Of a stretch of 64,000 nt of DNA, positions 1,270 to 52,076 are shown piece by piece (the first letter of the stretch is position 1; each line of letters begins with the position of its first letter). This stretch comes from Ascaphus truei (taxonomy: Eukaryota; Chordata; Amphibia; Anura; Ascaphidae): assembly GCA_036426205.1 (NCBI GenBank), contig CM071568.1, positions 217,421,372 through 217,485,371 on the forward strand, given 5' to 3'. The notes under the pieces are model-generated. The model worked only from the letters and a program-made list of their open reading frames with translations. It was not told the origin of the DNA and did no database searches. The translations under genes were made by a program, and so were the position numbers.

Positions 1270-1890
1270 TGTAAGTCCTGTTAAGGGCAGGCGCCAGTAG
1301 TTAACATGGGGTTTTCCCCCGCTTAAGCCTTGCCTTGAGTGATGGAGACAGGCCTCTGACTCTGTGTGCAGGCCTGAGACAGAGGGGAGGGCCTTCTGAC
1401 ATCATGAGCAGAGAGTGCTGGAGTGTCTGACCTGAGAGGTCATGCTGAGAGTGACAACAGTGCTTGGAGGAGAAACTCAGACCCAGTCTGAGTAGAGCAG
1501 ATAGAACCATAGGCGGTGGACCTATGCCCCTCACCCTGCTCAATGGGTGAGGGGGATCTTGCCTCACCCAGAGGAAATACCCTAAGGGTGGGTGCCGGGG
1601 GCATTGAAGCCCAATACAGCCCATCCTGCAGGGGTACAGCCTGGAGGAGAAGGTGTGGAGGAAAAGACCCTGTATACATTTGGAAGTACTGCTGTGTATG
1701 AACTGCGGTGCATGATCTGCTGTGTGCTGCTACAGAAAGAATAAAGAGACATTGCTGCTTTTAACAAAGAACTGACTGAGACTGGAATCTCTCTTCCCTT
1801 AGTGGGAATTCTCTGTAAGGGTTCCACCCCATATCCCTGGGGCTTATAGAGATGGAGGCGCTGCACCGTTGCTAGAGAAGATGGAGGCAT
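1270..1890 (+). repeat. Possible LTR-like repeat with polyadenylation signal
   Basis: The block starts at a TGTAAG-type end, is GC-rich, and carries an AATAAA signal at 1740-1745 followed by a T-rich stretch. It has no long ORF. The layout resembles a retrotransposon LTR, but I could not find a target-site duplication, a primer-binding site or a second LTR. It could equally be an unrelated repeat. The short piece at 1011-1035 just before it resembles the end of the 'TTTACTAAG' MITE family also seen at 6.4, 36.4 and 57.1 kb. Confidence 0.25.
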
Positions 1891-2201
1891 ATACCCCAGA
1901 AGCCTGTCCCTGTTATCCCCAATCCCAACGCGGGAGACTCAGGCCCTCCTGTTCCTCACAGGTATGCACCACCAACATGCATGTAGCCAGCCCTCACTAC
2001 ACCCTAGAGGTCCAATCTGCGACTGGGGTGGGAGGTGGGGGGGGGGGGACATGGGTTACAGATGTATGGACTGAACTACTGTATATGTAACAAACAATAT
2101 ACCATTTGGTTTCTGGAATAGGAGAGACTGCTGTGTAAAATTTGCTGTGATGGTCTTGAACTGATCTCAACAGATTTAGCAAAGCATCCTAAAAATGAAG
2201 G
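1891..2201. other. No gene seen
   Basis: The only distinctive feature is a short G-rich run near 2034-2048. Open frames here are short and have no recognisable content. Confidence 0.4.
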
Positions 2202-14573: not shown

Positions 14574-14965
14574 TATGGTAGGCTACAGGATGCATAACCT
14601 TCCCAAAGACTGTCCCATCCAATACCAAATAATACACTGACAGCCATTTGGATCAAACCGGCCACAGCTTTTATTAACATTTTCCAATCCTTGCCAGTAA
14701 TTTATCATATTTAACATAACCATATGCCAGCCACTGACATTACTGCCAAGTGGGCACGTTCACCAAAATAAACCAAAGGTTAAAGCAGCACACCATAAGA
14801 TGATGCATTGATATTCCCTTCCCAGACTTCACCAGGGCCAAACCACCTGTCTATTCCATAACATACCGTTCCAGCTGGCAAGGAATCGCACCCCTGCGAC
14901 AAATCAAATCATCCATTATAGAAATAAAATGCATAGTAATAGAATAAATAATATAAACTTACATT
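14574..14965. other. No gene seen
   Basis: Nothing recognisable. It contains TTAAAGCAGCACACC near 14,780, resembling the end motif of TTAA-type MITEs. Confidence 0.35.
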
Positions 14966-14969
14966 TATA

Positions 14970-15395
14970 TATATACTGTGGAGGGTTTTTGTCACTTTTT
15001 TCCCCACCATAACTTTACTAAGTGTGGTGAAACCTATCCTAAGCTTCATTTTGCAAAGCCAGTATAACCAACCCCACACTGATGAGACCCATTAAGGTCG
15101 AAACGGCTGTCTGTGGGTGGGTTTACTGGCTATGCATCTTAACCCTGGCTGTGCTCAAAGCTGTGAAATGCAGCAAGCAAAAGCTTACAGGGCACCATGT
15201 TATATGGTTTTGAAGCAAAAGGTGGCAATGTGTGCTCATTTGCATGTCATTTCCCAGAATCCCTTGCTGCCATGGAAGCACTGTGTGCTGGGTGATAATG
15301 GTGAAAGGCAGGGTTGCAGATCTGTCTAAGACATGCAAATGAGCATACAGTAATATTTCCATTTGATATAAATATATATTTGTTTCTTTTAAAGG
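14970..15395 (+). mobile_element. Short interspersed element carrying a hammerhead ribozyme
   Basis: The body from 15,112 to about 15,360 is shared with 44,795-45,260 (minus strand) and 45,830-46,030 (plus). Shared text includes TTAACCCTGGCTGTGCTCAA, GGTTTTGAAGCAAAA, CCCAGAATCCCTTGCT, GGGTGATAATGGTGAAAGG and ATGAGCATACAGTAAT. The leader (GTGGAGGGTTTTTGTCACTT) recurs at 46,060. There is no ORF of note. Known: short non-autonomous retroelements with type I hammerheads (retrozymes) and Penelope-like elements occur in animals. Inferred: this is such an element or a fragment of one. No RT or GIY-YIG coding is seen nearby, so what mobilises it is unknown. Confidence 0.65.
15057..15131 (+). ncRNA. 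Type I hammerhead self-cleaving ribozyme
   Basis: All core parts are present and in order. CTGATGA is at 15,079-15,085. Stem II is GACC/GGTC (15,086-15,089 with 15,096-15,099) around a CATTAA loop. GAAA is at 15,100-15,103. A minimal stem III (AC/GT) encloses GGCT, and the cleavage triplet GTC ends at 15,111. Stem I is long: CCCACA just before the core pairs with TGTGGG just after the cut, and further out AGCCAGTA (15,057-15,064) pairs with TACTGGCT (15,124-15,131), with internal loops between. A short stem III and open stem I fit the minimal type I hammerheads of Penelope-like elements and retrozymes. Activity is inferred, not shown. Confidence 0.88.
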
Positions 15396-17379: not shown

Positions 17380-20300
17380 TCATTGCAATATGTTGGTGAG
17401 GTCAACCCCCGGGATGTCTGTCTGTGTCAGCCAAGGTGACCACACTTTTAGAAAATTTGTGCCGGTGTCGTTGACCAGACTTGTCAACTGTTCCATCCGG
17501 CAGACGAACCAAATTCGATTTCTGATTTTGGGTATAATTGGAATCTGTGGTTGCTTCCACAGTGCTGCGATCTCGCATCTAGTGACAGTGGCAAAATGTG
17601 CCACTAGTCTGTGTGTTGCGTTCGAGAACCCCTGAACCCGCCGGCCTAACAGGAACAGCCACGGATCCAAGGGGACCTCGATCTCCAACAGCCGTTGTAG
17701 CCACTCCTGTACCTCCTCCCAAATCGGGGCCACTTTTGCGCATGACCACAGCATGTGGAGCATGTCCGCTCTCTCCCCGCACTGTTTGGGGCAGAGCGGG
17801 GAGTAGCCTCTGACAAATTTCGAGAGTTTTGTTGGGGTATAGTACCAACGCATGAGGACCTTATAGGCGTTCTCCTTTAGCGTGGTACAGATAGAGCTCT
17901 TTGCTGCTGCCTGTAGGATCCTATCCCAATCGTCGTCCTCTAATGTGTCCCCTAAGTCAGCTTCCCACTGCCTCATATAATTAAGTCTAGGTGTGTCAGT
18001 TGTCTCCGGACAAATCACTTCCCTGTACATTCGAGAGGTTAGGCCCCGTGTGTCCGTTTGTCTGGCGCACAGCTGCTCGAAATTTGTTCTCCGTGGCCGA
18101 ATTGGGGTCTTGGCATAGAAGGCCCTTATCTGTAGGTATCTAAATAATTCAGTATTCGGAATGTTTTTTTCCTCTTTTACGTGAGCGAAGGATTTAATTA
18201 CACCCTTGCTGCCAAGATCATACAATCGGAGGTAGCCTGCTAGTCTCCACTTTGTGAACTGAGCGCTGTCTAGACCAGGAGCGAAATCCGGGTTGCCCCA
18301 TATGGGGGTCATCAATGACTGCTGTGATGTAAGAGAACATCTAAATTTAGTGGCCCCCCATACCTTCAGGGAATTTCTCATGGCCTGCAGTGGTGTGGAC
18401 ATCCGTACATGACTACTCTTGGGTAGCCATATCAGGTTCTTCAGATCCACCGGGGCGCAGCACTCCCTCTCCAGTGCCACCCATCTCCTAAGGGTTGGGT
18501 CTGTGTGCCACTGCAGAATCTGCGTTAATTGAGCTGCTTCGTAGTAAGCAAACAAGCACGGCACGCCCAGCCCCCCTCTTGAGGTCGGCCTCCTCAAGAT
18601 ATCTTGTTTAATTCTGGGCCTTTTTTTATTCCAAATGTATTTTGTTATCGCGGACTGTAAAGAGAGGATCTCTTCTCGTGGCAGGGGAATCGGGAGGGTC
18701 TGAAAGAGATACAGCACTCGTGGGAGAAGATTCATTTTTACGCTTTGTATCTTGCCTATCCACGAGATGCTATATTCTGCCCATCTCCGTAGATCCTCCT
18801 TTAGTGTCTTGAACAACTGTGGGTAATTTGCCTTATATAAGGTTTTATAATCTTTGGTGAGGTTAACCCCTAAATATTTAATCATAGAGGGCTGCCATTT
18901 AAAATTGAAATTGAGTCCAATTAGTTTTTCAGTTGATTTAGGTAGATTGAGATTGAGAGCTTCTGATTTGGCCTGATTTATTTTGAAACCCGAGATTTGA
19001 TGGAATCTCCCCAGAATTGAGAACACATTGGGCAGAGAGGTAAGAGGCTGCGATAATGTCAGGATCACATCATCTGCGTACAGGGCAACCTTGTGTGATT
19101 GCTCTTTAAAAGTTATGCCCTTGACATCCGGGCTTGACCTAATATGTGCCGCCAAGGGTTCTATACATAGAGCGAACAGCAAGGGGGACAACGGGCATCC
19201 CTGTCTCGTGCCACTATGAATCTGAAAAAGCTCTGAAGGGAATCCCTGATGCCTCACTCGAGCTGCCGGCCCCTCGTACAGTGCCATGATGGCCTCCAAT
19301 AAGCTTCCTCCGAAGCCAAACGCCCCCAGCGTCTCTTTCAGGTAGGGCCAATCGATCCAATCAAACGCTTTTTCAGCGTCCAGACTAAGCACCATCGAAG
19401 GAATATTTTGCTTTTGGGCCAGATCGATAACGTCAATTATTCGTCTGGTGTTGTCTGCCGCCTGTCTGCCGCTAATGAACCCCACCTGATCTGGATGTAT
19501 CAGCTTTGGCAGGACGATACCCACTCTATTAGCTATGAGTTTTGAGAAAATTTTAATGTCTGTATTAATTAAAGAGATGGGCCGGTAGCTCTTACAGTCT
19601 GCCGGGTCCTTTCCAGCTTTGTAGATCAGTGAAATAGACGCCTGGAGCATCCGCGCCGGGAAGGAAGCTCCCTGCAATACCGAATTAAAGAGTTGCAATA
19701 AGTATGGGGCTAGAAGTTTTATGTATTTTTTGTAATAGAGGTTGGAGTATCCATCTGGGCCCGGCGCCTTGGCTGGCTTAAGAGACTTTACGACATCCGT
19801 CAACTCATCGGAAGAGAAGTCTTCCTGTAGTGCCTCTCTTTCCGCTCTGCTCAATTTGGGCAAATTTGCCTCTTTCAGGAATTCTCGGAGATTTTTGTTT
19901 GTTTTTTGATTGTGGATAACCTTACCCCCATCGTACAGCGACTCGTAGTAGTGCTTAAATTCCTCTACGATTCGCGCAGGATTAGAGGTAAGTTCCCCTC
20001 CCTGCGTGCGAATTGATTGTATTTGGTAATTTGGTTGTTTGTTTCGAAGTTTAGTCGCTAAGAGCGTGTCTGGCTTGTTCGCTTTCTCGAAGAATCGGCG
20101 TTTCGTCCAGCTCATTTCTTTTTCAGCGTGAGATGTCAGTTTTAAATTTAGTTGTTTTTTGGTATCTTGGATCTGAGTCAAGATTGCCTCGCTTTTTGAG
20201 GTTTTATGTATTGCTGTCAGGGAGGCCAGTTTCCCCTTCAGTTCTTTGATCTGACTCTCTTGTTCTCTCTTGCGTCTAGCAGCTAGGCACATGAGAGATC

Positions 20301-20541
20301 CACGGAGGGTAGCTTTATGGGCCTCCCACAAAGTGGCAGGTGAGGATACACTTCCCTCGTTCTCTGTAAAGTATTCTCTGATTTTGTCTGCAATTTCGAG
20401 ATCAAATTTAGGGATTTTTAGCAGTAGTTCATTTATTCTCCAATTCGCTCCCGGTCTGTCCCGCAACTGTAGTTCGCACCGCAGCTCTATCGGTGCATGG
20501 TCTGACCACGAAATTTCGTGTATGCCCGTGTGGGAGACCAT
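17380..20541 (-). CDS. ORF2 (APE endonuclease/reverse transcriptase), 3' open part, 1053 codons
   Basis: The open frame starts at an internal Met (MVSHTGIHEISWSDHAP, the last endonuclease motif) and runs through the whole RT to the C-terminus. Blocks seen are APGPDGYSNLYYKKY, YKAGKDPADCKSYRPISL, SGRQAADNTRR, LSLDAEKAFDWIDW, RQGCPLSPLLFALC and LYADDVILTLSQ, then a C-terminal zinc-knuckle-like stretch (CPKQCGERADMLHMLWSC). Upstream in this duplicated copy the frame continues, but Glu120 of ORF2 (GAA) has become TAA at 20,827-20,829, so the endonuclease N-terminal part is cut off. R in AEKAFDR is W here. Alone it lacks most of the endonuclease and is unlikely to support retrotransposition. Confidence 0.9.
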   Translation of the reverse strand: MVSHTGIHEISWSDHAPIELRCELQLRDRPGANWRINELLLKIPKFDLEIADKIREYFTENEGSVSSPATLWEAHKATLRGSLMCLAARRKREQESQIKELKGKLASLTAIHKTSKSEAILTQIQDTKKQLNLKLTSHAEKEMSWTKRRFFEKANKPDTLLATKLRNKQPNYQIQSIRTQGGELTSNPARIVEEFKHYYESLYDGGKVIHNQKTNKNLREFLKEANLPKLSRAEREALQEDFSSDELTDVVKSLKPAKAPGPDGYSNLYYKKYIKLLAPYLLQLFNSVLQGASFPARMLQASISLIYKAGKDPADCKSYRPISLINTDIKIFSKLIANRVGIVLPKLIHPDQVGFISGRQAADNTRRIIDVIDLAQKQNIPSMVLSLDAEKAFDWIDWPYLKETLGAFGFGGSLLEAIMALYEGPAARVRHQGFPSELFQIHSGTRQGCPLSPLLFALCIEPLAAHIRSSPDVKGITFKEQSHKVALYADDVILTLSQPLTSLPNVFSILGRFHQISGFKINQAKSEALNLNLPKSTEKLIGLNFNFKWQPSMIKYLGVNLTKDYKTLYKANYPQLFKTLKEDLRRWAEYSISWIGKIQSVKMNLLPRVLYLFQTLPIPLPREEILSLQSAITKYIWNKKRPRIKQDILRRPTSRGGLGVPCLFAYYEAAQLTQILQWHTDPTLRRWVALERECCAPVDLKNLIWLPKSSHVRMSTPLQAMRNSLKVWGATKFRCSLTSQQSLMTPIWGNPDFAPGLDSAQFTKWRLAGYLRLYDLGSKGVIKSFAHVKEEKNIPNTELFRYLQIRAFYAKTPIRPRRTNFEQLCARQTDTRGLTSRMYREVICPETTDTPRLNYMRQWEADLGDTLEDDDWDRILQAAAKSSICTTLKENAYKVLMRWYYTPTKLSKFVRGYSPLCPKQCGERADMLHMLWSCAKVAPIWEEVQEWLQRLLEIEVPLDPWLFLLGRRVQGFSNATHRLVAHFATVTRCEIAALWKQPQIPIIPKIRNRIWFVCRMEQLTSLVNDTGTNFLKVWSPWLTQTDIPGVDLTNILQ

Positions 20542-21045
20542 TGGGACCAGTCTGTTGGATACAAGGAAGTAATCTATCCGGCTATATCTGTCATGGGGGT
20601 GGGAGTAAAAAGTATAGTCCTTGGTCTGTGGATGTTGCTCCCTCCAGATGTCTACTAGCTGACAGTCCCGGAGTCCGTGGGAGATTGTTAGTATGTCTCG
20701 TTTATTGGACTGATTAGGGGCTGTACATCTATCTAGCTTTGAATTTAACGCTCTGTTCAGGTCGCCTGCTAATATGATTTGGCCCTTTGCTTCCCTCTGT
20801 AAGCGCCTAAAAAAAAGAGCAAAAAATTATTTTGCTTGTTCGCATGGGGCGTACAGCGAGACTAATGTGATAGCTTGACCCTGGATGGAGCCTATTAAGA
20901 TAATGTATCTGCCCTCAGGATCTATAACTTTCTTTTCTAGTTCAAACAGTATGTTCTTGTGGAATATAATGGCCACCCCTCCCTTTTTTGTTAGGGCGGA
21001 GGCTAGATATATTGTGGGGTACTCTTTGTCTATATATTTGGGGTA
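19049..21045 (-). repeat. Tandem duplication unit 2 inside ORF2 (1,997 bp)
   Basis: Matches 21,046-23,042 at a constant offset of 1,997. By eye about two dozen substitutions and no net indel separate the copies (roughly 1%). It carries the nonsense change at 20,827-20,829. It spans the codons for residues 48 to about 712 of ORF2. Confidence 0.93.
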
Positions 21046-23183
21046 TGCGATAATGTCAGGATCACATCATCTGCGTACAGGGCAACCTTATGGGATTGCT
21101 CTTTAAAAGTTATGCCCTTGACATCCGGGCTTGACCTAATATGTGCCGCCAAGGGTTCTACACATAGGGCGAACAGCAAGGGTGACAACGGGCATCCCTG
21201 TCTCGTGCCACTATGAATCTGAAAAAGCTCTGAAGGGAATCTCTGATGCCTCACTCTAGCTGCCGGCCCCTCGTACAGTGCCATGATGGCCTCCAATAAG
21301 CTTCCTCCGAAGCCAAACGCCCCCAGCGTCTCTTTCAGGTAGGGCCAATCGATCCGATCAAACGCTTTTTCAGCGTCCAGACTAAGCACCATCGAAGGAA
21401 TATTTTGCTTTTGGGCCAGATCAATAACGTCAATTATTCGTCTGGTGTTGTCTGCCGCCTGTCTGCCGCTAATGAACCCCACCTGATCTGGATGTATCAG
21501 CTTTGGAAGGACGATACCCACTCTATTAGCTATGAGTTTTGAGAAAATTTTAATGTCTGTATTAATTAAAGAGATGGGCCGGTAGCTCTTACAGTCTGCC
21601 GGGTCCTTTCCAGCTTTGTAGATCAGTGAAATAGACGCCTGGAGCATCCGCGCCGGGAAGGAAGCTCCCTGCAATACCGAATTAAAGAGTTGCAATAAGT
21701 ATGGGGCTAGAAGTTTTATGTATTTTTTGTAATAGAGGTTGGAGTATCCATCTGGGCCCGGCGCCTTGGCTGGCTTAAGAGACTTTACGACATCCGTCAA
21801 CTCATCGGAAGAGAAGTCTTCCTGTAGTGCCTCTCTTTCCGCTCTGCTCAATTTGGGCAAATTTGCCTCTTTCAGGAATTCTCGGAGATTTTTGTTTGTT
21901 TTTTGATTGTGGATAACCTTACCCCCATCGTACAGCGACTCGTAGTAGTGCTTAAATTCCTCTACGATTCGCGTAGGATTAGAGGTAAGTTCCCCTCCCT
22001 GCGTGCGAATTGATTGTATTTGGTAATTTGGTTGTTTGTTTCGAAGTTTAGTCGCTAAGAGCGTGTCTGGCTTGTTCGCTTTCTCGAAGAATCGGCGTTT
22101 CGTCCAGCTCATTTCTTTTTCAGCGTGAGATGTCAGTTTTAAATTTAGTTGTTTTTTGGTATCTTGGATCTGAGTCAAGATTGCCTCGCTTTTTGAGGTT
22201 TTATGTATTACTGTCAGGGAGGCCAGTTTCCCCTTCAGTTCTTTGATCTGACTCTCTTGTTCTCTCTTGCGTCTAGCAGCTAGGCACATGAGAGATCCAC
22301 GGAGGGTAGCTTTATGGGCCTCCCACAAAGTGGCAGGTGAGGATACACTTCCCTCGTTCTCTGTAAAGTATTCTCTGATTTTGTCTGCAATTTCGAGATC
22401 AAATTTAGGGATTTTTAGCAGTAGTTCATTTATCCTCCAATTCGCTCCTGGTCTGTCCCGCAACTGTAGTTCGCACCGCAGCTCTATCGGTGCATGGTCT
22501 GACCACGAAATGTCGTGTATGCCCGTGTGGGAGACCATTGGGACCAGTCTGTTGGATACAAGGAAGTAATCTATCCGGCTATATCTGTCATGGGGGTGGG
22601 AGTAAAAAGTATAGTCCTTGGTCTGTGGATGTTGCTCCCTCCAGATGTCTACTAGCTGACAGTCCCGGAGTCCGTGGGAGATTGTTAGTATGTCTCGTTT
22701 ATTGGACTGATTAGGGGCTGTACATCTATCTAGCTTTGAATTTAACGCTCTGTTCAGGTCGCCTGCTAATATGATTTGGCCCTTTGCTTCCCTCTGTAAG
22801 CGCCTAAAGAAGAGAGCAAAAAATTCTTTTGCTTGTTCGCATGGGGCGTACAGCGAGACTAATGTGATAGCTTGACCCTGGATGGAGCCTATTAAGATAA
22901 TGTATCTGCCCTCAGGATCTATAACTTTCCTTTCTAGTTCGAACAGTATGTTCTTGTGGAATATAATGGCCACCCCTCTCTTTTTTGTTAGGGCTGAGGC
23001 TAGATATATTGTGGGGTACTCTTTGTCTATATATTTGGGGTAGCTTTTTTTGGAGAAGTGGGTCTCTTGAAGGAAGAGGATGTCAGCTCTATGTCTCTTA
23101 TAGTCTTTAAAGGCTAACTTACGTTTAGCTGGGTGATTCAGTCCCTTTACATTATGGGAAAGGCAACATATCTCTCTACCCAT
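21030..23183 (-). CDS. ORF2 5' part, truncated by the duplication junction, 717 codons
   Basis: Starts at MGREICCLSHNVKGLNH, the usual beginning of an APE-type L1 endonuclease. Endonuclease motifs seen are QETH (E40), AGDLN (D142, N144), SRIDYFLVS and SDHAP. The RT follows up to LYADDVILTLS at about residue 712. At 21,045/21,046 the sequence jumps back to the second copy; because 1,997 is not a multiple of 3 the frame shifts and stops after a few residues (HTPNI). The thumb and C-terminal domain are therefore lost. The start overlaps the stop of a 70-codon upstream frame (23,388-23,176) by 8 nt, which would suit reinitiation. Confidence 0.9.
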   Translation of the reverse strand: MGREICCLSHNVKGLNHPAKRKLAFKDYKRHRADILFLQETHFSKKSYPKYIDKEYPTIYLASALTKKRGVAIIFHKNILFELERKVIDPEGRYIILIGSIQGQAITLVSLYAPCEQAKEFFALFFRRLQREAKGQIILAGDLNRALNSKLDRCTAPNQSNKRDILTISHGLRDCQLVDIWREQHPQTKDYTFYSHPHDRYSRIDYFLVSNRLVPMVSHTGIHDISWSDHAPIELRCELQLRDRPGANWRINELLLKIPKFDLEIADKIREYFTENEGSVSSPATLWEAHKATLRGSLMCLAARRKREQESQIKELKGKLASLTVIHKTSKSEAILTQIQDTKKQLNLKLTSHAEKEMSWTKRRFFEKANKPDTLLATKLRNKQPNYQIQSIRTQGGELTSNPTRIVEEFKHYYESLYDGGKVIHNQKTNKNLREFLKEANLPKLSRAEREALQEDFSSDELTDVVKSLKPAKAPGPDGYSNLYYKKYIKLLAPYLLQLFNSVLQGASFPARMLQASISLIYKAGKDPADCKSYRPISLINTDIKIFSKLIANRVGIVLPKLIHPDQVGFISGRQAADNTRRIIDVIDLAQKQNIPSMVLSLDAEKAFDRIDWPYLKETLGAFGFGGSLLEAIMALYEGPAARVRHQRFPSELFQIHSGTRQGCPLSPLLFALCVEPLAAHIRSSPDVKGITFKEQSHKVALYADDVILTLSHTPNI
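21046..23042 (-). repeat. Tandem duplication unit 1 inside ORF2 (1,997 bp)
   Basis: The upstream copy in the sense of the element, with an intact endonuclease frame. The junction reads GGGTA/TGCGATAATG on the plus strand. Comparing both parental edges (GAGGC/TGCGATAATG at 19,049 and GGGTA/GCTTTTTT at 23,043) shows no shared base at the break. Confidence 0.93.
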
Positions 23184-30077: not shown

Positions 30078-31127
30078 TATGTCATATTTTCCGTAGGCAT
30101 CTGGTGAATTTAAATTGCTGTTTCATTATTCGAGAATATGTTCATAAAGAACGTAGGCGATTCCATTGTCCAATAACCTTGGACCGCTAACAATGCAAAG
30201 GATACAGCGTATGGAATAAGATTCACTAATTCTCAGAAAAGGATTACTTCAGTAGTATTTAAAAAATTCAGATATCATGATTATTAGAGTAATACTCAAC
30301 AATATTTTATTGCACTAGTAAAATGTATGCATCTATACCTACAGTATATTAAATGTGCAATGGAGCTCTCACTATACAGATTTGCATTTGGATACTGTCA
30401 CAACCAAAGCAAATAAGTCTGTCAATAGAGATTTCTTTTAGCTATTTCCCTAAATTAAAATGATAGTAGTCATTTATTAGCCAGCTAAAGACCCTGGGGA
30501 GTAATACAAAAGGCTGTAAGTGAATTCACTGCATAGAATACTGATGATCCTCACTCTGATGAAGGGCTTAGATCAAAACACTTCTATAAGCACTTTAAAT
30601 AGTATATGATATATTTTATAATAACGTGTTTATTCAAATCATAAACACCAATAATAGACAAGTCTGTGCATCAAGGCTTTCTGTTTAATCAGTCAAATGC
30701 AACGCTATAAGTGTGTCCTAGATATGAACGTATATTAAACAAGATAAGGAGCAGGTGGTATTTAGAACATGAAACGCTGCCTTGTTGTTCTCTAGTTATA
30801 AATTCCTTCACCAGTGCAGCTTGATATTGTGCAGTTCACAGCAAATGCACTTTGGAGTATTTTAGGACCAGCTTAGTTAATTTGATCATAATACTTTGAC
30901 TTCAAAAGATGAATAGAAAGTCACATCACAGGCAATTTTTATATTACTTTCACCAAACAGAGTAATTTATAAGGACCTCCTCAAAAATCAGCGTATGTGT
31001 TTCCTTTCTTCTAATCATTTATACGAATACAAAAAAATGTCATTTTTACAACACGGTTCTTAAATCTAAAAAAACAATAAACTATTGCAAAAAATGTATC
31101 GCATTAAAACCCCTTGGTTGCCAGAAC
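30078..31127. other. No gene seen
   Basis: AT-rich spacer. At 30,562-30,590 CTGATGA is followed by AAAACAC at hammerhead spacing, but stem II does not form. No recognisable ORF. Confidence 0.4.
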
Positions 31128-31199
31128 GTCTAGTGCAGCGGTGTCCAATATGTTCGCCACTCGCCACATGTGGCAAACAGCACACTGTGTTGTGACGAA

Positions 31200-32690
31200 T
31201 GGGGGTACAGGCAGGACATCTGCCGGTGATTGCTGGCTGGTGGCTGCTGGGCGCTCAGCTGGCTGATGGCTGCGGGCTGGTGGATGGCTGTGGGTTGCTC
31301 GGCTGGCTGGTGGGTGCGTTCGGCTGGCTGGTGCACTCGGCTGGCTGGTGGCTACAGGGCACTCAGTTGTCTGGTGGCTGCGGAGCACTCGGCTAGCTGG
31401 TGGCTGCTGGTCTGGCTGGTGGCTGCTGGTCTGGCTGGTGGCTGCAGGGCACTCGGCTGGCTGGTGGCTGCGGGGTGCTTGGCTGGCTGGTGGCTGTGGG
31501 GCGCTCAGCTGGCTGGTGGCTGCGAGGTAATCAGCTGGATGGTGGCTGTGGGGCAATCGGCTGGATGGTGGCTGCGGGGCAATCGGCTGGCTGGTGGCTG
31601 CGGGGCAATCGGCTGGCTGGTGGCTGCGGGGCACTCAGTTGTCTGGTGGCTGCGGGGCACTCGGCTAGCTGGTGGCTGCTGGGCTGGCTGGTGGCTGCGG
31701 GCCACTCGGCTGGCTGGTGGACTGCGGGGCGCTACGCTGGATGGTGGTGGGGGCAATGCGGATGGGGGTGGCTGCGGCGGCATCTAGTTGTCTGGTGGGC
31801 TGGGGGCACATGGCTAGCGCGTGGCTGCGTTGGCGGCTGGTGGCTGCGGGGTGCTGGGCTGGCTGGTGGTGCGGGGTGCTGGGCTGGCTGGTGGCTGCGG
31901 GGTGCTGGGCTGGCTGGTGGCTTCGGGGTGCTGGGCTGGCTGGTGGCTCGGGGCGGTGCTGGTGGCTGGTGGTTCGGGTGGGGGGTTAGTGGCGTGGTGA
32001 TGGGCTGGTGGTGGCTGGGGGTGCTGGGCGGCTGGGGGCTCGGGGGTGCTGGTGGCTGGTGGGGCGAGGTGTTGGATGGCTGGTGGCTGCGAGGTTCGGG
32101 GAGGCTTGGTGGCTGAGGGGGCTCGGCGCTGGGGGACGGAGGGGGGAGGGGGGGCAGGGGGGAGAGGAGGATTGGCTGGTCGCGTGGGAGGGAGGGAGGG
32201 AGGGGCGGGATGAGGGGGTGAGGGGAGGGAGGCGGGGCAGGAGGGGGAGGCGGAGGGCGTGGGGCGAGGAGGGGGGCAGTCTCTTTCCTGGGAGGGAGGG
32301 AGGGTGGATGAGCCGGGGAGGGATGGGGAGGGTGGAGGAGGGGGGTGCCGGCGGGGAGGGGAGGGGGTGGATGAGGGGTGATGGGAGTGGCAATGGTGGG
32401 AGGAGGTACGGGTCGGTGATGGGATGGATGGTGGATGAGAGGGGGATGGGGATGGCTGGTGGAGAGGGGGGATGGCTGCGCTGGGTGCTGCGAGGGGGTT
32501 GCTGGGCTGGATGGTGGCTGCGGGGTGGGGACGGGGCTGGTGGTGGCTTGCCGGGGGTGCTGGGCTGGCTGGTGGCTGCGGGGTGCTGGGCTGGCTGGTG
32601 GCTGCGGGGTGCTGGGCTGGCTGGTGGCTGCGGGGTGCTCGGCTGGCTGGTGGCTGCGGGGTGCTGGGCTGGCTGTACAATCGGCTGGCC
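31200..32690. repeat. Large G-rich minisatellite, 26-bp unit GGCTGGCTGGTGGCTGCGGGGTGCTG
   Basis: Units recur at exactly 26 bp in the cleaner parts (for example 32,571, 32,597 and 32,623), with degenerate G-runs at about 32,110-32,480. Variants replace the end with GCACTC, GCAATC or GCGCTC. Because 26 is not a multiple of 3 and the unit has no stop codon, long open frames appear in nearly all six frames (for example 31,400-32,116 + and 31,814-32,695 -). They are not genes. The plus strand has dense G-tracts. Confidence 0.95.
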
Positions 32691-32779
32691 GGCACTATAA
32701 TTTACAGCAACACCCCTGTATCCCGCTTCTGCATTTGCCTGCGTGATCATCGTGTGCCACTGGAGTCCTCCCCCCCAGG

Positions 32780-40235: not shown

Positions 40236-41885
40236 CAGTTAGGTCCGGAAATAATTGGACACTGATACAAGTTTTGTTATATCGGCTGTGTACCAAAATA
40301 AATTCGAGTTACAGTTAAATAATGAATATGGGCTTAAAGTGCAGGCTATCTGCTTTAATTTGAGGGTATTCACATCCAAATTGGAGAAAGGGTTTAGGAA
40401 TGACATCTCTTTAATATGTAGCCCCTCTTTTTCAAGGGAACAAAAGTAATTGGACAATTGACTCAAACGCTGTTTCATGGACATGTGTGGGCTATTCCTT
40501 CGTTATTTCATCATCAATTAAGCAGGTAAAAGGTCTGGAGTTGATTCCAGGTGTGGCATTTGCATTTGTAAGCTGTTTCTGTGAACCCACAACATGCGGT
40601 CAAAGGAGCTCTCAATGCAAGTGAAACAGGGCATCCTTAGGTTGCAAAAAAAAAGAAAACCCATCAGAGATAGCAGGAACATTAGGAGTGGCCAACACAA
40701 CAGTTTGGTACATTCTGAGAAAAAAAGAGCGCACTGGTGAGGTCTGCAACACAAAAAGGCCTGGACGTCCACGGAAGACAACAGTGGTGGATGATCGTAG
40801 AATCCTTTCCATGGTAAAGAAAAACCCCTTCACAACAACCAGCCAAGTGAAGAACACTCTCCAGGAGGTAGGCATATCATTATCCAAGTCTACCATAAAG
40901 AGAAGACTTCACAGGAGTAAAAACAGAGGGTTCACCACAAGGTGCAAACCATTCTTAAGCCTCAAGAATAGAAAGGCCAGATTAGACTTTGCCAAACAAT
41001 ATCTAAAAAAGCCAGCCCAGTTCTGGAACAGCATTCTTTGGACAGATGAAACTAAGATCAACCTGTACCAGAATGATGGGAAGAAAAAAGTATGGAGAAG
41101 GCTTGGAACGGCTCATGATCCGAAGCATACCACATCATCTGTAAAACACGGTGGAGGCAGTGTGATGGCATGGACATTCATGGCTTACAGTGGCACTGGG
41201 TCACTAGTGTTTATTGATGATGTGACAGAAGACAGAAGCAGCCGGATGAATTCTGAAGTGTATAGGGATATGTTGTCTGCTCAGATTCAGCCAAATTCTG
41301 CGAAGTTGATTGGATGGCGCTTCACTTTACAGATGGACAATGTCCCAAAACATACTGCGAAAGCAACCCAGGAGTTTTTTAAGGCAAAGAAGTGTGGAAT
41401 ATTCTGCAATGGCCAAGTCAATCAACTGATCTCAACCAGATCGTGCATGCATTTCACTTGCTTAAGACAAAACTTAAGGCAGAAAGACCCACGAACAAAC
41501 AACAACTGAAGACAGCTGCAGTAAAGGCCTGGCAAAGCATCACAAAGGAGGAAACCCACCGTTTGGTGACGTCCATGCGTTCCAGACTTTAAGCAGTCAT
41601 TGCCTGCAAAGGATTCTCAACAAAGTATTAAAAATGAACATTTTATTTATGATTGTGTTAATTTGTCCAATTACATTTGAGACCCTGAAATAAGGGGACT
41701 GTGTATGAAAATGGTTGTAATTCCTAAACGTTTCATACGATATTTTTGTTCAACCCCTTGAATTAAAGCTGAAAGTCTGCACTTCTATTACATCCCGGTT
41801 GTTTAATTTCAAATCCATTGTGGTGGCGTACAGAGCCAAAATTATGAAAATTGTGTCAGTGTCCAATTATTTCCGGACCTAACTG
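40236..41885 (+). mobile_element. Tc1-type DNA transposon, 1.65 kb
   Basis: The left end CAGTTAGGTCCGGAAATAAT and right end ATTATTTCCGGACCTAACTG are exact complements, and TA flanks both (40,234-40,235; 41,886-41,887). The inverted repeats include subterminal ATTGGACACTGA/TCAGTGTCCAAT. It contains one broken transposase gene and is a full-length but inactive copy. Confidence 0.93.
40594..41592 (+). pseudogene. Tc1 transposase (DD34E family), broken
   Basis: The reading begins MRSKELSMQVKQGILRL, shifts frame by a one-base loss near 40,667, then stays open from about 40,670 to 41,390. Seen: paired HTH DNA-binding part (IAGTLGVANTTVWYIL, GRPRKTTVVDDR), first Asp in LWTDETKIN, second Asp in LQMDNVPKHT. 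A second frame shift near 41,390 leads into WNILQWPSQSTDLNQIVHAFHLL and on to 41,592. Known: the third catalytic residue lies in DLNPIE; here the Glu is Val (and Pro is Gln). The TAA at 41,590-41,592 probably replaced a Gln codon, because AVIACKG follows in frame. It would normally cut and paste DNA at TA in the nucleus; this copy cannot. Confidence 0.92.
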
Positions 41886-44440: not shown

Positions 44441-44794
44441 GCATCACCTTTTGTTTGCACCCCCCTCCCCCACCCTCTCCTCCTTCCATTCTCTTTTCCA
44501 ACCCCAGTTTGTTTTTCTTTCCATCTTTCCCATTCCCGTTTTCTCCCATTTACCCATTTACCCTTGTTGCTTATACGCTTTTTGCAATTTGACCTATACC
44601 CCCTGGGGTTTTGTGTTCTTTTCTTCATTAAATCAATTTGGCTTATACCTTTTTCCATTTGTCTTTTATGAGTGCTGGGAACATTGTTCTGTATCTATTG
44701 TTGTGGAAGAAGTAGGGTTTCTCCATGTTCCACATTGCACCATTTAATACATGCTTGCTATTTTGAGTGCGGCCTATTTTTGTTTTATTACTTG
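44441..44794. other. No gene seen
   Basis: Pyrimidine-rich stretch (about 44,450-44,560) followed by AT-rich spacer. Frames at 44,290-44,747 on both strands have no domain. Confidence 0.4.
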
Positions 44795-45260
44795 TGAGCA
44801 CATTCACATGTCTTAGACAGGTCTGCAAGCCTGCCTTTCACCATTATCACCTAGCATACAGTGCTTCCACTGTAGCAAGGGATTCTGGGAAATGACAAGC
44901 AAATGAGCACACAGTGGAAGCACTATATATAGCTATATATATATGCAAATAGAACTGTATGCTCATCTGCATGTCTTAGGCAGGTCTGCAACCCCACCTT
45001 TCACCATTATCACCCAGCATACAGCACTTCCACTGCAGCAAGGGATTCTGGGAAATGACATGCAAATGAGGCCAGTGCCACTTTTTGCTTCAAAACCATT
45101 TTAAACATGTTTCCCTATAGGCTTAGCTTGCTGCATGGTCACAGCTTTGAGCACAGCCAGGGTTAAGTGCATACCCAGAAACAACCCACAGACAGCTGTT
45201 TTCGACCTTAATGGTCTCTATCAGTGTGGGGTTGATTAACTGGGTATGCAAAGAAGCTAT
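44795..45260 (-). mobile_element. Ribozyme-bearing short element, copy 2, with partial second body
   Basis: On the minus strand: degenerate hammerhead (45,240-45,165), then the body shared with 15,112-15,360, ending near 44,950. A second, partial body (about 44,800-44,915) repeats the CCCAGAATCCCTTGCT and GTGATAATGGTGAAAGG text. This head-to-tail arrangement is what a multimeric or rolling-circle-like RNA template would leave, though simple tandem duplication is equally possible. Confidence 0.65.
45165..45240 (-). ncRNA. Decayed type I hammerhead ribozyme
   Basis: Homologous to the 15-kb ribozyme. The core reads CTGATAGA (one inserted A) from 45,224 downward. Stem II GACC/GGTC is intact. GAAAACAGCTGTC has one inserted A before the cleavage triplet GTC (45,193-45,191), and CCCACA/TGTGGG of stem I is kept. 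The two single-base insertions in the catalytic core should abolish activity. Confidence 0.75.
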
Positions 45261-45295
45261 GGAATAGGCTATACCATAATACTGATTAAGTTATC

Positions 45296-45600
45296 TATTA
45301 TATATATATATATATATATATAGTATATCGTTACCGTTCCAAGGATTGGTAACAAAGACAAACACTCAATGTTGAAAATCAAAGTGTATTAGTGAAGCAA
45401 AAATACATCCAGAAACCCAACGTTTCGTGTCCTACAGAATGGGACCTTCCCCAGGGGTATACCCTTTGTATTCCCCTGAGGAAGGTCCCATCCTGTAGGA
45501 CCGAAACGTTGGGTTTCTGTATGTATTTTTGCTTTCACTAATACACTTTGATTTTCAACATTGAGTGCTGTCTCTTGTTTACCAACCTTGGAACGTGTAA
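45296..45600. repeat. Palindromic MITE-like repeat with paired motifs
   Basis: Arms of about 125 bp: GTTCCAAGGATTGGTAA, CACTCAATGTTGAAAATCAA, AACCCAACGTTTCG on the left against their complements on the right, ending CCAACCTTGGAACG. Each arm holds CTGNGGAAGGTCCCAT... GGAC(A)CGAAACGTTGGG, so the motif appears on both strands (45,415-45,455 and 45,474-45,515). An (AT)n tract lies at 45,298-45,323. Confidence 0.8.
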
Positions 45601-45712: not shown

Positions 45713-45829
45713 TTTGTCTTATAGATCTGTCGTCATTTATTGAGTGGGAGAATAACTATTTTCCTTCCCTTTATATACATTTCTGTTGAACTGAAGTCTT
45801 TGTATATATATATATAACACATGGAAATA

Positions 45830-46090
45830 TTACTGTATGCTCATTTGCATGTCTTAGACAGCTTCAGGGGACCATGTGTTATATAGTTTTGAAGCAAAAG
45901 GTGGCACTGTGTGCTCATTTGCATGTCACTTCCCAGAATCCCTTGCTTCAGTGGAAGCACTGTAAGCTGGGTGATAATGGTGAAAGGCGGGGTTGCAGAC
46001 CTGTCTAAGACATGAAAATGACCATACAGTAATATTTCCATTTGCTATATGCTTTACTGTGGAGGGTTTTTGTCACTTTTTTTTACCCAC
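45830..46090 (+). mobile_element. Ribozyme-element body, copy 3, without a ribozyme
   Basis: Shares GTTTTGAAGCAAAAGGTGGC, CCCAGAATCCCTTGCT, GGGTGATAATGGTGAAAGG and CAGTAATATTTCCATTTG with the 15-kb element. It continues into CTGTGGAGGGTTTTTGTCAC, which at 15 kb is the leader upstream of the ribozyme. So leader follows body here, while leader precedes ribozyme there. Confidence 0.65.
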
Positions 46091-46147
46091 CATAATATAA
46101 AATCAAAACTGAATAGACGATACTGTTCTGTGGCTAAAGAAATGCTT

Positions 46148-50467: not shown

Positions 50468-52076
50468 CTGGTTGTGTGAAAAAGCAACTACACCCTCTTT
50501 GAATTCTATGGTTTTACATATCAGGACATAATAACAATCATCTGTTCCTTCGCAGGTCTTAAAATTAGGTAAATACAGCCTTAGATGAACAACAACACAT
50601 GACATATTACACGGTGTCATGATTTATTTAACAAAAATAAAGCCAAAATGGAGAAGCCATGTGTGAAAAACGAAGTTTACCTTATGATTCAATAGCTTGC
50701 AGCACCACCTTTAGCAGCAATAACTTGGAGTAATCGTTTTCTGTATGACTTTATCAGTCTCTCACATCGTTGTTGAAGAATTTTGGCCCACTCTTCTTTA
50801 CAACGTTGCATCAGTTCATTGAGGTTTGTGGGCATTTGTATATGTACAGCTCTCTTAAGGTCCAGCCACAGCATTTCAATCGGGTTGAGGTCTGAACTTT
50901 GACTGGGCCATTGCAACACCTTGATTCTTTTCTTTTTCAGCCATTCTGTTGTAGATTTGCTGGTGTGCTTGGGATCATTGTCCTGTTGCTTGACCCAATT
51001 TCGGCCAAGCATTAGCTGTCGGACAGATGGCCTCACATTTGACTCTAGAATACTTTGGTATACAGAGGAGTTCATGGTCGACTCAATGACTGCAAGATTC
51101 CCAGGTTCTGTTGCTGCAAAACAAGCTCAAATCATCACCCTTCCACCACCGTGCTTGACAGTTGATATGAAGTGTTTGTGCTAATATGCTGTGTTTGGTT
51201 TTCGCCAAACGTGGCGCTGTGCATTATGGCCAAACATCTCCACTTTGGTCTCGTCTGTCCAAAGGACATTGTTCCAGAAGTCTTGTGGTTTGTTCAGATG
51301 CAACTATGCAAACCTAAGCCATGCTGCCATGTTCTTTTTAGAGAGAAGAGGCTTTCTCCTGGCAACCCTTCCAAACATACCATACTTGTTCAGTCTTTTC
51401 TAATTGTACTGTCATGAACTTTAACATTTAACATGCTAACTGAAGCCTGTAGAGTCTGAGATGTAACTCTTGGGTTTTTTGCAATTTCCCTAAGCATTGC
51501 ACGGTCTGACCTTGGGGTGAATTTGCTGGGACGTCCACTCCTGGGAAGATTGGCAACTGTCTTGAATGTTTTCCACTTTTGAATAATCTTTCTCACTGTA
51601 GAATGATGGACTTTAAATTGTTTGGAAATGGCCTTATAACCCTTCCCAGATTGATGGGCAGCAACAATTGCTTCTCTAAGATCATTGCTGATGTCTTTCC
51701 TCCTTGGCATTGTGTTAACACACCTGAATGCTCCAGACCAGCAAACTGCTAAAACTTCGGCTTTTATAGAGGTCTTCACACTTGCTGATGATCAATTAAT
51801 CAAGGGCATTTGATTAGCAGCACCTGTCTGCTACCTAGCATCTTAATTCCTATGGAAGCAGTAAGGGTGTACTTAGTTTTTCACAAATAGCTTCTCCATT
51901 TTGGCTTTATTTTTGTTAAATAAATCATGACAGTGTAATATGTCATGTGTTGTTGTTCATCTGAGGTTGTATTTACCTAATTGTAAGACCTGCTAAGGAA
52001 CAGATGATTGTTATTAAGTCCTGATATGTAAAACCATAGAATTCAAAGAGGGTGTACTTTCTTTTTCACACCACTG
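50468..52076 (-). mobile_element. Tc1-type DNA transposon with ~210-bp inverted repeats
   Basis: Terminal segments 50,468-50,690 and 51,870-52,076 are inverted complements (GTGTGAAAAAG at the tip; TACACCCTCTTTGAATTCTA; TAGAATTC...AAAACCATAG; AAAATGGAGAAGC inside). TA lies outside both tips (50,466-50,467; 52,077-52,078). Known: long inverted repeats with internal direct repeats (IR/DR) are typical of vertebrate Tc1 elements such as the Sleeping Beauty type. One broken transposase gene is inside. Confidence 0.9.
50689..51710 (-). pseudogene. Tc1 transposase (DD34E), catalytic triad present but frame broken
   Basis: Begins MPRRKDISNDLREAIVAAHQ (Met at about 51,710) with the first HTH (GYKAISKQFKVHHSTVRKII) and GRPSKFTPRSDR. 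The frame is lost after VHDSTIRKD. Between 51,390 and 51,080 a shifted frame with in-frame stops still reads LWTDETKVEMFG. The last part is open (51,075-50,689): QQDNDPKHT, DLNPIEMLW, and a C-terminus ending GGAASY. All three catalytic acids remain. Breaks are stops and frame shifts in the middle, so no functional protein is expected. Confidence 0.9.

Follow-up and report, generated by a model that had tools for sequence, protein, structure and literature searches.

The segment examined here can be read with good confidence as a type I hammerhead ribozyme within a non-coding, dispersed and partly tandem repeat of ~403 bp, likely a non-LTR retrozyme. Such a retrozyme would be a small non-autonomous retroelement, copied to DNA by the reverse transcriptase of another element. 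The segment lies in a stretch of 64,000 nucleotides from Ascaphus truei (the window). Two points concerning animal retrozymes, the enzyme that mobilises them and their promoter, are both addressed by this repeat family, which has preferred ends and a candidate promoter. As many such copies are present in a 2.8-Gb genome, both points are directly testable.

The hammerhead ribozyme and its stems

An earlier note, made from the letters alone, had described a complete type I hammerhead with an intact core and a GTC cleavage triplet, and had proposed a covariance-model search as a check. The letters, stems and core were found at the places it gave, in the layout described (Table 1). When the whole window was searched against Rfam, RF00163 matched at 15073-15117 (+) with 34.3 bits (E 8.6e-5), just 0.3 bits over its cut-off of 34 bits, and was the sole family over its own cut-off anywhere in the window. 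The match has the conserved core, three stems and open stem I of that family. A family model scored the window hammerhead at 116.1 bits, the same sequence having helped to build that model. Pairing was confirmed at 15057 and 15131, where the note had placed the ends of stem I, but the true ends lie a little further out, at 15052 and 15136. The extended stem I holds one bulge and one internal loop; natural hammerheads form loop contacts at such places.

Table 1. Features of the repeat in the window, and loci with head-to-head copies (u, position in the 403-bp unit)
Feature	Position or locus	Strand	Evidence
Copy 1, about one unit, u1 = 14976	14976-15372	+	aligned to the 403-bp unit of L026, 85%
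Type I hammerhead with full stem I; core 15079-15111	15052-15136	+	RF00163, family model, covariation between subfamilies
Stem I extension TGCA/TGCA	15052-15055/15133-15136	+	read from letters
Stem I AGCCAGTA/TACTGGCT	15057-15064/15124-15131	+	read from letters
Stem I AACC/GGTT	15066-15069/15120-15123	+	read from letters
Stem I CCCACA/TGTGGG	15073-15078/15112-15117	+	read from letters
CTGATGA	15079-15085	+	read from letters
Stem II GACC/GGTC	15086-15089/15096-15099	+	read from letters
GAAA	15100-15103	+	read from letters
Stem III A15103-T15110 and C15104-G15109, loop GGCT	15103-15110	+	read from letters
Stem III and loop ACGGCTGT, self-complementary with G-U	15103-15110	+	duplex and co-fold prediction
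GTC	15109-15111	+	read from letters
Candidate PSE-like block, CACCATAACTT at 15005-15015	15001-15020	+	pattern match; weaker evidence
Candidate DSE: octamer ATTTGCAT (15238-15245) and SPH/Staf-like site (15251-15268)	15238-15268	+	pattern and conservation
Favoured 3' end site B, ~u39-53; copy 1 does not end here	15014-15028	+	contexts of B ends
Favoured 3' end site A, ~u384-402, here into AT-rich sequence	15358-15375	+	segment ends
Partial copy u257-386, without hammerhead	44786-44916	-	alignment to unit
Copy 2, degenerate hammerhead 45161-45250	44941-45294	-	85% alike to copy 1
Left arm of head-to-head pair, u353-393, site A end beside (TA)n	45821-45861	-	alignment
Right arm of that pair, u217 via unit junction to u42, site B end	45866-46100	+	alignment
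Head-to-head copies, first set	window, L002, L004, L009, L022, L027, L028, L029, L031		
Head-to-head copies, second set	L051, L055, L056, L060, L065, L074, L075, L082, L085, L087		

When a 101-nt segment containing the hammerhead was folded, an energy of -38.3 kcal/mol was obtained (z = -4.48). Its 200 shuffles averaged -23.26 +/- 3.36, and not one of them folded as well. Folded as a single molecule, the 92-nt stretch had its energy minimum in a structure other than the hammerhead, at -38.1 against -33.5 kcal/mol. Given the position of the GTC triplet, the RNA is predicted to cut itself after C15111.

Stem III reads ACAGCTGT, ACGGCTGT or ACGGCCGT in 31 of 40 rows of the alignment, and each of these could self-pair over 8 bp. 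When two window hammerheads were co-folded, both came out complete and joined through a common stem III, with an energy of -81.5 kcal/mol, compared with 2 x -38.1 for two separate molecules. The self-complementary stem III is thus predicted to make an 8-bp helix between two hammerheads, which fits a double (dimeric) hammerhead. As stem III is short but self-complementary, cleavage would occur mainly in this double form. According to PMC7229834, those axolotl hammerheads whose stem III is weak show poor cleavage as single molecules and good cleavage as dimers, and hammerheads of the repeat type with a self-complementary stem III have already been noted (PMC3088659).

Whether stem I and the core covary among copies had also been proposed as a check. 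In 40 copies aligned without regard to structure, mostly from loci picked by the hammerhead model, 91.7% of the cells pair. The doubly changed cells numbered 35, compared with 11.4 +/- 4.7 in shuffles (0/500 reached 35) and with at most 20 when the partners were slid. The number of pairs with a double change was unexceptional (5, against 3.9 when shuffled); the excess of cells comes mainly from two stem I pairs and so reflects few events counted many times. Judged from this alignment, compensating changes have preserved stem I between subfamilies, but within the young subfamily (41 stretches from 39 loci picked by whole-repeat similarity) covariation did not exceed that of shuffles. A strict core pattern was intact in 23 of those 41 hammerhead stretches; one outcome that would have spoken against the earlier note, other copies consistently lacking the core, did not occur.

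Copies of the repeat and their ends

The unit of 403 bp was defined from tandem loci, with L026:2138-2540 as the reference. The aligner placed copy 1 at 14953-15362, its AT-rich ends not being sharp. Beyond copy 1, the window has a second copy and three further pieces. The hammerhead of copy 2 keeps stem I and has extra bases in the core; Rfam gave no RF00163 match there up to E 1. No part of 14976-15372 falls within an ORF of at least 120 aa, in agreement with the earlier claim that the host repeat is non-coding. Elsewhere in the window, 31104-32750 is GC-rich and repetitive, and both strands there carry long open frames that overlap; it is probably a tandem repeat and not coding.

At least 42 hammerhead matches, all over the cut-off and the best at 48.8 bits, were found in the 2.82-Gb host genome; this is a lower bound, since 74 of 344,898 first-look candidates were scored. 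The repeat was present at all 42 loci, 27 of which cross the unit junction by at least 10 nt. A DNA search, in which 40 of 6,391 candidates were scored, gave besides the window at least 39 near-full-length relatives at 91-95% identity. Five 10-kb stretches at fixed genome positions contained one copy in 50 kb, too few to extrapolate. Viral contigs and other genome contigs, searched with one exact repeat pattern each, gave 0 matches. The suggestion of a vertebrate retrozyme-like element was supported, with non-coding ~403-bp units, dispersed in many copies and in partial tandem, that carry a type I hammerhead; these are among the features by which non-LTR retrozymes are recognised. Across 71 aligned segments the conservation of the unit peaked at u1-40, u101-140 and u261-300, the second of these being the hammerhead, which is among the best-conserved parts.

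The 5' ends of the copies are variable, and the copies often finish in (TA)n or (GT)n microsatellites. Two favoured 3' ends, A and B, lie ~50 nt apart. Site A accounts for 25 of the 71 segment ends, and 14 of these 25 have a short tandem repeat of at least 10 nt within 40 nt, as against 5.6% of random 40-mers of the window. For all segments together, such repeats occurred near 19/70 of the 3' ends vs 15/70 of the 5' ends. In the 39 further loci, 17 of 33 A ends examined had a repeat of at least 12 nt, whereas the rate in random 50-mers was 2.6%. These loci had been selected for their likeness to the window copy, AT-rich flank included, and the set is therefore biased in favour of A. Site B ends read CTTAAC(T)(AAGTGT), and (GT)n or (TA)n frequently comes next. 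Of 10 composite insertions none showed a convincing target-site duplication; such duplications are hard to see there, since the targets are themselves repeats.

Two other candidate ends were rejected. A fixed 5' end at q353-356, suggested by the match table, gave way to variable starts on realignment of the 39 loci. Several segments stop at u138-148, near the cleavage site, and they do so at no single exact base; one of them resembles an internal deletion and one joins U2 snRNA sequence. We therefore claim no trace of cleaved RNA from these ends. The U2-like stretch (L042:1624-1793 (-); RF00004, 46.6 bits, cut-off 46) directly follows a retrozyme fragment (1794-1927 (-)) that ends at u142, and the junction is perhaps a template-switch chimera. 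U2-like letters past the last copy in L026 stayed below the Rfam cut-off.

Head-to-head copies numbered 19, 9 in the window and the 42 loci and 10 in the 39 further loci (Table 1). Two weak cases were counted (L029, with a 19-nt arm, and L074, 71 nt at 75%). AT-rich pieces in L059 (39 nt, overlapping) and L083 (54 nt) were dropped beforehand, and L019 (the one clear tail-to-tail pair), L005 (complex) and L063 (an adjoining tail-to-tail arm) were left out. Both outer ends lay at A or B in 9 of the 19; eight of these nine were A plus B (window, L002, L022, L051, L055, L056, L075, L087) and one, L082, was A plus A. In the remaining 10, at least one outer end was elsewhere or unclear. Among them, L031 ends at u44 (in a poor alignment) and u59; if both were taken as B, it would break the A-plus-B rule once. 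Likewise, an outer end of L009, at u44 according to the aligner, runs to ~u80 by eye. The inner junctions were variable. For six classifiable inverted arms in the 39 loci, the probability of at least five B ends was P = 0.005, in a post hoc test assuming a B rate of 1/4 that was read roughly from single copies.

A candidate snRNA-type promoter

An octamer is followed after 5 bp by a site that differs by one mismatch from what we take to be the SPH/Staf consensus. The window contains four SPH sites with at most one mismatch, and all four are inside copies of the repeat. The conservation of the octamer was 0.954 and that of the SPH site 0.934, compared with a mean of 0.859; around the inverted-repeat partner of the octamer (u361-380) it averaged 0.85. 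The sequence evidence supports this block well as an octamer-plus-SPH enhancer. The second element, CACCATAACTT in the u21-42 block, is presumably close to the human U6 PSE. Its pattern YACCRTAACTT had one match in the window, against 0.14 expected, and as a PSE it is only a candidate.

The two elements occur in cis only across the unit junction, in 19 pairs, 16 of which are spaced at 156-177 bp, and the right arm of the head-to-head pair in the window (45866-46100 (+)) contains both. The candidate snRNA-type promoter would therefore be complete only across a junction, and the PSE-like site of the window copy would act with the DSE of the preceding unit.

Promoters of the host were read for 7SK (one match) and for three of six U12 matches, the PSE positions being assigned by a pattern written after those sequences had been viewed. 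The 7SK gene and one U12 gene have an octamer at -215 and -211 and a presumed PSE at -67 and -62, respectively. Their octamer-PSE distance is 148-149 bp, somewhat shorter than in the repeat. The two other U12 copies read had no octamer, so that one was present in 2/4 host promoters. None of the four host PSEs (TCTCCCTATG and alike) closely matches the PSE-like block of the repeat. It may be noted that the six U12 matches lie on one contig (G000:C14495, L088-L090), that five of them exceed the cut-off, and that 1/3 of the U12 promoters read there has an octamer.

A possible alternative, short of being probable, is that the octamer and SPH block belongs to an RNA hairpin and is no promoter, transcription occurring by read-through as suggested in a review in Cells (2020). 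The block does form one arm of an inverted repeat, the PSE-like site is unlike the PSEs of the host, and retrozymes seem to harbour no promoters according to PMC7761336. On the other hand, the octamer is better conserved than the surroundings of its inverted-repeat partner, and it adjoins the SPH site as in the chicken 7SK and U4B promoters, where SPH lies close to 4 bp past the octamer (PMC2235858). For newt satellite 2, moreover, a promoter of the snRNA type has been reported (PMC2220036, citing Coats 1994).

Proposed mobilisation of the repeat, and its relatives

Being non-coding, the repeat has no ORF with reverse transcriptase and GIY-YIG domains and is not itself a Penelope element, although it may be mobilised by one. 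At least 16 GIY-YIG matches were found in the host genome (150 of 697 candidates scored). Two GIY-YIG-bearing ORFs were read (560 and 551 aa, with direct repeats around each); GIY-YIG was the only domain over its cut-off in either, while RVT_1 fell short of its cut-off in one ORF and was missing from the second. We call these two loci Penelope-like on the basis of the domain, the layout and our own reading. They had no significant sequence in common with the repeat, the best E being 0.016, and a hammerhead was looked for in both and not found. The link to Penelope-like elements made in the earlier note is supported only indirectly: the layout of the copies fits, but the two loci have neither significant sequence in common with the repeat nor a hammerhead.

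According to PMC3846280, Penelope elements form partial tandems, and their inverted copies are mostly head-to-head with an optional tail on the inverted copy. The purified Anolis Penelope enzyme cleaves AT-rich DNA on both strands and initiates on its RNA from a pair of adjacent internal sites, giving a tail of 30-40 bp, and hammerhead mutants had no effect on its insertion in vitro (PMC11167929); the ribozyme need not, then, belong to the insertion step. Penelope-like elements are named as strong candidates for mobilising animal retrozymes in PMC7229834. The ends and orientation of the copies suggest a Penelope-type enzyme as the copier, and A-plus-B head-to-head pairs are the layout to be expected of its priming on both DNA strands. 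We infer the following course of events. Transcription would be driven by the promoter across the unit junction; the RNA, for the most part in the double hammerhead form, would cleave itself after C15111 to give single units; and the unit RNAs would be ligated into circles, which has been shown by others in the case of axolotl retrozymes. A Penelope-like enzyme would then start reverse transcription at internal sites A and B on nicked AT-rich DNA, and priming on both strands would leave head-to-head copies. This last step and transcription from the promoter are the least certain. The full combination, a Penelope-like reverse transcriptase that nicks both strands of an AT-rich microsatellite and begins on retrozyme RNA at one fixed site per strand, A or B, leaving a head-to-head pair with each double event, together with a promoter found only at junctions, is put forward tentatively. 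As the promoter would exist only where two units meet, only tandem insertions could make new RNA.

A LINE-type enzyme, with the head-to-head copies arising as 5' inversions through twin priming, would also be conceivable, and we regard it as a serious possibility, though not a probable one. An L1-like element is present in the window, the 5' ends vary as they do in LINE truncation, and the inner junctions vary as well. Twin priming is, however, not expected to fix the outer end of the inverted arm, yet eight of the nine pairs with two classifiable outer ends are A plus B; in addition, a poly(A) tail is absent and insertion is into (TA)n and (GT)n repeats. It is unlikely that the family is a decayed repeat of another kind, either a plain satellite or a DNA-transposon-like MITE, that inherited a hammerhead without a present role. 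A 20-bp inverted repeat (15229-15248/15330-15349), the existence of partial copies without a hammerhead and the limited share of strictly intact cores would agree with it. Against it stand the dispersed copies in partial tandems, with variable 5' ends and not bounded by inverted repeats, the compensating changes in stem I between subfamilies, and the place of the hammerhead among the best-conserved parts of the unit. A chance match, already thought very unlikely in the earlier note, can practically be dismissed in spite of the narrow RF00163 margin, as the same repeat accompanies every genomic match, with scores up to 48.8 bits, and covariation is seen.

Hammerhead-bearing repeats in Xenopus and non-LTR retrozymes in salamanders and invertebrates are already known. 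In the open-licence literature we found no report of frog retrozymes or of retrozymes with snRNA promoters; nor did we find there a description of the octamer-plus-SPH/PSE-like promoter, the two 3' ends or the A-plus-B head-to-head layout.

The axolotl retrozymes Rtz_331 and Rtz_353 (HHR_Amex1 and HHR_Amex2) likewise have a type I hammerhead in which stem III is weak and closed by a tetraloop, and they are non-coding tandem repeats in very many copies (126,247 motifs); one hammerhead type has a palindromic loop, and the units are of 331 and 353 nt as against 403 bp here (PMC7229834). By its description, the stem III found here, with 2 bp and a self-complementary loop, is a mix of the two axolotl types. 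The 403-bp unit is slightly longer than the published range for animal retrozymes (~170-400 nt). Newt satellite 2 resembles the repeat in its hammerhead with an extended, internally looped stem I; its cleavage depends on dimers and it has an snRNA-type promoter inside the repeat (PMC6155905, PMC7229834, PMC2220036), whereas here the dimer is suggested by folding and the promoter is a candidate. Compared by description, it is a satellite of ~330 bp (Epstein and Gall 1987; Coats 1994). A frog element, that of Xenopus tropicalis, is alike by description in being a multi-copy interspersed repeat with a type I hammerhead, and the Xenopus type has been suggested to be still active in some frogs and to be a source of the conserved vertebrate hammerheads (PMC3088659). 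Penelope-like elements share with the repeat a hammerhead, partial tandems, head-to-head copies with an optional 3' tail on the inverted copy, two adjacent internal start sites, proposed here from the favoured ends, and AT-rich targets (PMC3846280, PMC11167929). They differ in that their hammerhead is minimal, while the repeat has a full one and no ORF, and in that the tail of 30-40 bp (PMC11167929) compares with ~50 nt between the two ends here; the variable inner junctions are also unlike theirs.

Other elements were noted in the window. A head-to-tail duplication of 1,997 bp (19049-21045 and 21046-23042, 98.9% identical) lies inside an L1-like element with ORFs at 17380-20541 (-) and 21030-23183 (-). 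The best-scoring named relatives of the L1-like protein were from the frogs Dendropsophus, Leptobrachium and Xenopus, followed by fish and lizard, in agreement with a frog host. The ORFs at 40688-41509 (+), 50689-51075 (-) and 51390-51779 (-) are presumably pieces of Tc1/mariner-like transposases. A near-perfect long hairpin at 45418-45511 scored 43.5 bits for mir-3158, far below the cut-off of 97, and is probably an inverted repeat of another element.
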